From: Alphaproteobacteria bacterium | Lineage (GTDB): Bacteria; Pseudomonadota; Alphaproteobacteria; SMXS01 | DNA length: 48,897 nt | Direction: 5' to 3' | Assembly: GCA_030836535.1 (NCBI GenBank) | Contig: JAURPT010000148.1 | Location: 1 to 48,897, forward strand | Part shown: in pieces, positions 16,035 through 18,135 of the stretch | Layout of the letters: each line of letters starts with the position of its first letter | Numbering within the stretch: the first letter of the stretch is position 1 | Notes under the pieces: model-generated | Told to the model about the DNA's origin: nothing | Database searches by the model: none | What the model saw: only the letters and a program-made list of their open reading frames with translations | Made by a program: the position numbers and the translations under genes

Positions 16035-17330
16035 ATGAACGGGTTCAGTTGGAATAAGATGGCGCTTGGTGCATTGGTGGCTGTTGCGGTGGTTGCGACA
16101 TCTACAATGTCCATGACAAGCGCGGCCCAGGCGCAGTCAGCGCAGTGCGGTAAGTCTTCCGGTAACAAGGTATTGTCGCCGAAAGTGTTCCGCGTAATTG
16201 AAGACGTCCAGAAATTGCTGGAAGCCGAAAATCTCGGTGAGGCGATGATGGAACTGGACGGTATCAAGAACAAGAATGAGTTGCCCGCCTACGATCAGAC
16301 GGTGCTGTATCAATTCTATGGCCAGATTTACGCTGAGCGCGAGCAGTACATCCAGTCTGCGCAAGCTTTGGAACGGGTTATCCGTTTGGGTGAATGTATC
16401 CTGCCGCCTGAACAGATCAGCCAGACGGTGTTTAACGTTGGTCAGCTCTATATTGGTGCCGAACAGTATCGCAAGGGCATGAATTACCTGCAGAGCTGGT
16501 TCGACAAGAACCCGGACCCGCCCGCTTCTGCCCTGGCATTTATGGCCAGTGCCAATCTTGGCATTGATCCGCCCAACTACCGCGAAGCTTTGAAGTGGAT
16601 GTTGCGGGCCGTAGAGAAATCCAAGTCCATGGGTGAAGAACCCAAGGAAAATTGGTACTCCACATTGGTTGCGCTCTATATGGAAAACGACCAGATGCGC
16701 GAAGCGCTGCCCATTATTGAGCTGCTGGTCAAAAAATATCCGAAGCGCAATTACTGGATGCAGCTGTCTTATGTTTACGGTGAGTTGAACCGGGATGCCG
16801 ACCAGTTCGCTACCCTGGAAAGCGCTTACCATCAGGGCCTGCTGATCAAGTCACAGGAACTGGTCTATTTGGCGCAGCTTTATATGGCGAATTCTATTCC
16901 GGATCGCGCAGGCGACATCATGGAAGAGGGCATCAAAGCCGGCAAGATCGAACGTAAGGCCGAAAATCTCCGCTTCATGGCCGACGCCATGTATACCGCC
17001 AAAGAGCTGGACCGTGCTATTCCGTGGTATGAAGAAGCCGGCAAGGCATCTGCTACGGCTGATACATTGTTCATGTTGGGTCAGATTTATATGCAGCAGG
17101 AAGAGTGGAAAAAGGCCATCAAAGCTTTTGAATCCATGTTTGCCAAGGACCGCCAGGCCCACAAGGATGATAAGCTTCGGACTATTGGTACTGCTCACTA
17201 CAATATGGGTATCGCCCTCTATAGTGATGGTCGTATTCGTGACGCCAAACGGTTCTTCACCAATGCCAAGAGTTACAAGGCAACCCGCAAGGGTGCTAAT
17301 CAGTGGCTCAAACGGATAGCGAGCGAATAA
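16035..17330 (+). CDS. periplasmic TPR protein of the TonB locus
   Basis: 431 residues. Signal peptide with cleavage near AAQAQS (about residue 34), then helical repeats over most of the length, several clearly TPR-like (ALMFASANLG-type helices, AIPWYEEAGKASATADTLFM, MGIALYSDGRIRDAKRFF). TPR proteins close TonB2/TtpC loci in Vibrio and Shewanella, where they are proposed to bind complex members or receptors in the periplasm. The ATG at 16035 has AAGGGAAGAAAG in front; the longer frame to 16005 is rejected. A strong terminator follows. Confidence 0.88.
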   Translation: MNGFSWNKMALGALVAVAVVATSTMSMTSAAQAQSAQCGKSSGNKVLSPKVFRVIEDVQKLLEAENLGEAMMELDGIKNKNELPAYDQTVLYQFYGQIYAEREQYIQSAQALERVIRLGECILPPEQISQTVFNVGQLYIGAEQYRKGMNYLQSWFDKNPDPPASALAFMASANLGIDPPNYREALKWMLRAVEKSKSMGEEPKENWYSTLVALYMENDQMREALPIIELLVKKYPKRNYWMQLSYVYGELNRDADQFATLESAYHQGLLIKSQELVYLAQLYMANSIPDRAGDIMEEGIKAGKIERKAENLRFMADAMYTAKELDRAIPWYEEAGKASATADTLFMLGQIYMQQEEWKKAIKAFESMFAKDRQAHKDDKLRTIGTAHYNMGIALYSDGRIRDAKRFFTNAKSYKATRKGANQWLKRIASE

Positions 17331-17355: not shown

Positions 17356-17384
17356 AAAAGCCCGGCTCTGTGCCGGGCTTTTTT
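17356..17384 (+). terminator. Rho-independent terminator closing the TonB operon
   Basis: AAAAGCCCGGC (17356-17366) pairs with GCCGGGCTTTT (17372-17382) around TCTGT, with a run of T to 17384. It lies 25 bases after the TPR stop and separates the seven-gene operon from the second tonB copy. Confidence 0.93.
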
Positions 17385-17435: not shown

Positions 17436-17526
17436 AGGCGACATTTTGCCTTCCCAGGGGGACTAATAGCCCGAAAGGGCCGAACCAGCTGTGATGAGGC
17501 AGCTGATATTCCTCTGGGAGAGAAAA
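17436..17526 (+). promoter_or_regulatory. structured 5' leader, possible riboswitch-like three-way junction
   Basis: The bases just before the second tonB copy can fold into a compact RNA. Helix P1 pairs CCCAGGGG (17453-17460) with CCTCTGGG (17511-17518), eight pairs with one G-T. Inside it P2 is GCCC-GAAA-GGGC (17469-17480) with a GNRA loop, and P3 is CAGCTG (17486-17491) with CAGCTG (17500-17505), loop TGATGAGG. An extra hairpin AGGC/GCCT (17436-17451) stands in front. The 3' strand of P1 runs into the GGGAG ribosome binding site at 17516-17520, so folding would mask it. It does not match the riboswitch consensus sequences I know. Function is inference. Confidence 0.5.
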
Positions 17527-18135
17527 ATGAATCCTACACATTATTGGAAAAGACTAAGTGGTGCGGGCGCGGCTGCACTGCTCATAACGGGGTGATTGGC
17601 TCTGGTCATGCAAGCGCTTGTTTTGCGCGGTGACATGGAATTGGGCGTCATTGATGATTACATACCCATCGATATCTGGATGGAGGACGAAGGGGTTGAA
17701 AAGCCTGAAACAACCCGCAAATTACCGGAGAAAATGGAAGTTCTTCCAATACCCAAAGTAGGTCCTGTACCGCCTACTATTGGTGATCCGGGCGGTGCTG
17801 TCGCTATCGAACGTGTTGAGCCGACCGGCCCCACCAAGCCAGTCATCGACGGTTTTGGTGACAAGGGTTCCTACCCTAAATTCCGGGTCCAGCATGAATG
17901 GCCGCGGCGGGCACTGGACCAGGGCATCTCTGGCTGGGTGATCGTTGGCTTCACCATTACGGCAACCGGTGCCGTCACGGATGCGCAAGTCATCGACTCA
18001 TCCCACCGGATGTTCGAAAGAAAAGCGCTCAAAGCTGTTGGTTCATACAAATATGAACCGACGGTCGTGAATGGCAGTGCTATTCCAACGTCCAGGCAGA
18101 CAATTCGTCTCGTCTGGCAAATCAGCGACAGCTGA
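17527..18135 (+). pseudogene. second tonB paralogue interrupted by an in-frame TGA
   Basis: The ATG at 17527 has a strong GGGAGAG site and opens MNPTHYWKRLSGAGAALLIT, then codon 23 (17593-17595) is TGA, in the middle of what should be the membrane helix; the same frame goes on LALVMQALVLRGDMELG to the stop at 18135. The C-terminal TonB domain (YPKFRVQHEWPRRALDQGIS, GWVIVGFTI, SYKYEPTVVNGSA) is intact and closely like the first TonB. Restart at TTG 17596 or ATG 17608 would lose half the anchor, leaving a domain that could not reach the periplasm. So it is a recent pseudogene, or is read through. The linker is shorter and the leader is separate from the main operon. Confidence 0.75.

Follow-up and report, generated by a model that had tools for sequence, protein, structure and literature searches.

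The second TonB gene (TonB2) of the window, that is, of the whole 48,897-nucleotide stretch of alphaproteobacterial DNA analyzed here, is preceded by a 5′ leader that folds into a three-way junction, with the closing helix pairing the Shine-Dalgarno (SD) sequence of the gene. This leader is probably a genus-level SD-masking element, which would keep translation of TonB2 low unless it is unfolded. Its fold, its stability, its location and its retention in one other species of the same genus are computed results. On the model energies, the leader is a real and unusually stable structure that masks the SD, and selection would appear to maintain this masking and not a ligand pocket.

Fold and stability of the TonB2 leader

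Folding of the region 17436-17526 gives a minimum free energy (MFE) of -41.8 kcal/mol with a z-score of -4.45, and none of 200 shuffles is as low. The three-way junction is formed by the 77-nt leader of the ORF starting at 17527, namely positions 17450-17526, and is composed of a closing helix P1 of 11 pairs, or 12 if a terminal U-G is counted, of two hairpins (P2 and P3) and of the junction strands CUAAUA, CGAAC and AUA (Table 1). Specifically, P1 pairs the GGGAG site, with pairing probabilities of 1.0 for each of the first three G, 0.92 for the A and 0.67 for the last G. A sequence-only reading of the same DNA had already placed a three-way junction with a GNRA-capped hairpin on this site; the junction is indeed present there and P2 carries a GAAA loop, but the helices are longer than had been proposed, as P1 had been given 8 pairs and P3, which has 7, had been given 6.

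Table 1. Positions in the window of the TonB2 leader elements and of the neighboring features.
Feature	Positions	Strand	Description
TPR gene	16035-17330	+	last gene of the DUF3450-ExbB-ExbB/TolQ-ExbD-ExbD-TonB1-TPR operon
Intrinsic terminator behind the TPR gene	17356-17382	.	11-pair GC-rich stem and T run; terminator-like on both strands
Small 5′ hairpin	17436-17451	+	AGGCGACAUUUUGCCU; in MFE and centroid structures; no match in G001
P1, 5′ strand	17452-17462	+	UCCCAGGGGGA
P2 hairpin	17469-17480	+	GCCC-GAAA-GGGC; 4 pairs, 17469-17472/17477-17480; GAAA loop
P3 hairpin	17486-17505	+	CAGCUGU-GAUGAG-GCAGCUG; 7 pairs, 17486-17492/17499-17505
P1, 3′ strand	17509-17519	+	covers the SD; pairs with 17452-17462
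Shine-Dalgarno sequence	17516-17520	+	GGGAG; masked
Second TonB gene	17527-18135	+	begins with ATG; codon 23 is TGA, after which the frame stays open until the stop codon 18133-18135; TonB_C domain
In-frame TGA	17593-17595	+	within a predicted membrane helix

The stability of the leader was compared with that of a background sample, consisting of leaders of 77 and 84 nt from genes that are preceded by an intergenic region, taken from sampled parts of the genomes (279 leaders at 77 nt in the source genome and 124 at 84 nt in the same-genus relative G001). Gene starts in this sample were called simply from a start codon together with an SD; some of them are therefore wrong, and some leaders may overlap unlisted short genes. 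At -36.7 kcal/mol, the 77-nt leader of the window lies below all 279 leaders of its own genome (best -36.2, mean -19.8, sd 5.4 kcal/mol), and the orthologous leader of G001, at -35.3 kcal/mol, is the lowest of the 124 sampled there. At 84 nt a few leaders of the source genome are equally or more stable (six at -35 kcal/mol or below), none of them with a junction on the SD. Moreover, opening of the SD costs 8.1-8.7 kcal/mol in the window, as compared to 2.9 kcal/mol at the median and 6.3 kcal/mol at the 90th percentile of 175 leaders. The SD is paired in the predicted ensemble and is costly to open.

The terminator that the sequence-only reading had recognized upstream of the leader is confirmed (Table 1), and the sequences of both G001 and G002, a relative from the same family, show at the equivalent place a GC-rich stem with a T run behind it. 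A promoter belonging to the second TonB gene itself, also proposed in that reading, is a plausible assumption, yet the gap before TonB2 yielded no sigma-70-like promoter. An upstream ORF or leader peptide was considered and rejected: the candidates are a TTG at 17446 in the window and an ATG (MSQRG) and a 41-codon ORF in G001, none of which is conserved or preceded by a good SD. The 41-codon ORF of G001, which has no conserved counterpart in the window, extends across P1 and P2, and its stop codon is the UAA of junction 3/1.

The leader in relatives and in wider searches

The genomes compared include 2 of the genus and 10 of the order, and G001 (MAG N074bin47) is the only same-genus relative of the source genome among them. 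The two species have the same gene order, with ExbB/ExbD genes, TonB1, the TPR gene, the terminator, TonB2 and a convergent acyl-CoA dehydrogenase. Protein identity between them is 79% for TonB1 and 69% for the TPR protein, while it falls to 49% for TonB2, which therefore evolves fast. The TonB2 leader of G001 adopts the same architecture, a three-way junction with P1 covering the SD, and has a z-score of -3.73, which drops to -2.14 once 44 more upstream bases are included. In particular, when the two P1 helices are aligned by the SD they are collinear except for one bulged A, and 10 of the 12 pairs are kept: six are unchanged, three have changed on one side and are still paired, one has changed on both sides (A-U to U-A), and the remaining two have become A.G mismatches. 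The first two G of the G001 SD sit in this A.G/A.G internal loop, and masking is weaker than in the window, with an opening cost of 5.2-5.9 kcal/mol.

The collection of homologous leaders, suggested in the sequence-only reading, recovered the closing helix in G001, whereas the side hairpins and junctions have diverged and the structure is absent in G002. P2 has 4 pairs in the window and 7 in G001, P3 has 7 and 8, respectively, and the hairpin sequences differ; the junction strands of G001 are A, G and A, unlike those of the window, and the loops differ too. The two leaders share the GAUA of J3/1 and, in P1, the inner GGGGG. Overall similarity between the two is not clearly above that of shuffles, 9% of which are as good, and a covariance model built from the leader of the window fails to recognize its ortholog in G001. 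The comparison within the genus consists of two sequences, too few for covariation statistics. In G001 (L028, 4433-4560, minus strand), two extra hairpins precede the three-way junction.

As the sequence-only reading had anticipated, no known RNA class matches: scanned against Rfam 15 in both gathering and E-value modes, the leader reaches the gathering score of no family, and the Rfam matches that overlap it are sub-threshold (for example Hrs13, on the minus strand, with 11.7 bits against 52). A DNA similarity search in 60 relatives returned the window alone, and the covariance model retrieved from the relatives the window and a single weak hit from a distant genome (E 0.36, 22.3 bits). No second copy was found ahead of another gene of the source genome, where the leader is single-copy. 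In G002 the leader of the second TonB gene has a different fold and an open SD (1.1 kcal/mol). None of 29 other TonB leaders of the class, first TonB genes included, has a three-way junction over its SD; many of these leaders fall within the preceding exbD-like gene. No TonB2 was seen after the TPR gene at the Iodidimonas and other distant TPR loci (L032-L035), and a literature search returned no described tonB leader of such kind.

Possible modes of control

In the mechanism that we propose, the three-way junction would set two hairpins on a closing helix of 10-12 pairs, with the ribosome binding site as the 3′ strand of this helix. Low translation of TonB2 would be the default state, and its level could be set by an event in trans, namely an sRNA or RNA chaperone or a bound protein, or by none, which would amount to a fixed attenuation. 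Such a leader would be of the same general kind as the SD-sequestering translation-control leaders, in which a stable 5′ UTR structure likewise pairs the ribosome binding site; it differs from these in being known from one genus only and without an identified effector. If the masking is real, TonB2 would be quiet at the level of translation while TonB1 is made together with its operon, and would represent a spare energy transducer held in reserve. The wider value of this finding is limited by its restriction to one genus and by a stop codon in the gene of the present assembly.

The sequence-only reading had proposed a translation-controlling riboswitch or a protein-binding leader. A structured leader on the SD, kept in G001, is what stands of this proposal; the riboswitch part is not supported, as the side hairpins and junction strands have diverged within the genus and the second TonB of G002 lacks the fold. 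A junction able to bind a small molecule or a metal, and thereby to open or close P1, would agree with the position of a compact three-way junction over the SD in front of a transport gene, with the lack of a matching RNA class and with the GAUA and GGGGG elements common to both species. The add adenine riboswitch is an SD-sequestering riboswitch with a three-way junction, and riboswitches of this type have the same geometry, from which control at the translational level would be expected; the TonB2 leaders differ from them in that neither junction nor loop nucleotides are conserved from one species to the other, and they have no Rfam match. The core of an aptamer would be expected to persist within a genus, and for this reason a riboswitch is disfavored by the comparison of the window with G001 (two sequences), in which no conserved aptamer core was found, neither in the junction strands nor in both hairpins and loops. 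The failure of the covariance model to find the G001 ortholog, the single copy in the genome and the absence from the other TonB leaders also argue against a riboswitch, which we regard as improbable. It is very doubtful that a genus-restricted riboswitch, or another effector-operated leader of a new class, gates a spare TonB through a small conserved core made of GGGGG, UA and GAUA at the junction. The helix over the SD has persisted and the parts that it encloses have changed, as would be expected of selection for masking and not of selection for a ligand pocket, and a translation-lowering leader is therefore favored over a riboswitch. Operation of the leader by a protein or an sRNA, for example by an RNA-binding regulator that holds the hairpins or by an sRNA that invades P1, would be compatible with the architecture, and divergent arms could be tolerated if P1 and the hairpin shape alone matter. 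Nevertheless, no conserved binding motif is recognized between the two species and no partner is known, and we consider this a minor possibility.

A neutral origin, in which GC-rich intergenic sequence just happens to fold, gains some room from the small number of sequences compared (two). When the leaders are shuffled with the SD tail fixed, a multiloop-closing stem falls on the SD in about 6% of the shuffles of either leader, and the same is observed in 4-7% of real SD-bearing leaders, which speaks for chance. The native energy is reached by 0 and 0.05% of the shuffles of the two leaders, and such a stem at native energy by 0 of 2000. As the stability is extreme in the samples of both genomes and at orthologous places, a chance fold appears rather unlikely. 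The G-U pairs of the SD-masking helix would be in line with an RNA thermometer, but model energies give opening costs still as high as 6.9 kcal/mol in the window and 3.6 kcal/mol in G001 at 55 °C, so that the closing helix stays shut in the model throughout the physiological temperature range; no Rfam thermometer matches either, and thermosensing of this kind is highly improbable. In topology only, the leader recalls a Type I hammerhead ribozyme, by its stem-junction-stem order and by the junction letters CUAAUA and CGAAC. The core strands of that ribozyme are CUGAUGA and GAAA; the CUGAUGA...GAAA core is absent from the leader, there is no Rfam match and the resemblance is not kept in G001, and this candidate was rejected.

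The second TonB gene

From the ATG at 17527 the frame reads MNPTHYWKRLSGAGAAALLITG, TGA, LALVMQALVLRG and continues into the TonB_C domain; the stop codon within it had not been reported in the sequence-only reading. This ATG is the right start, since G001 has an equal number of residues (27) before MQALVLRG, and an N-terminal extension from the ATG at 17494 is thereby ruled out. At the column of the TGA, TonB1 and G002 have Gly and G001 has Thr. The TonB2 ortholog of G001 is intact and without a stop, and when 385 genomes of the class were searched, the window gene alone among the TonB matches listed had an internal TGA. One base change separates TGA from the Gly codon GGA. A TTG directly follows the TGA, and a start there would cost most of the membrane helix. 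The TGA is most likely a recent nonsense mutation or a MAG assembly error, and the leader may here serve a dead or mis-assembled gene.

Selenocysteine was considered because the source genome has tRNA-Sec and SelA (G000:C80:1262-2353, L110) and probably decodes this amino acid. tRNA-Sec is found at two places with identical scores, both at contig ends (G000:C59:4871-4960, L040, and G000:C80:3823-3912, L041), which are possibly one locus split by the assembly. None of the homologs compared has Cys or Sec at the column, and the hairpin that follows the TGA, as a candidate SECIS element, does not surpass shuffles (z from -0.5 to -1.4); selenocysteine at this position is thus unlikely despite the presence of tRNA-Sec and SelA.

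In G002 (L029, C24, 4833-10756), a series of TonB-domain proteins is encoded behind TonB1 and the TPR gene; one of them apparently has two TonB-like domains and another a TPR-like part. A further cluster lies on C39 of the same genome, and the arrangement looks like a lineage-specific expansion of TonB.
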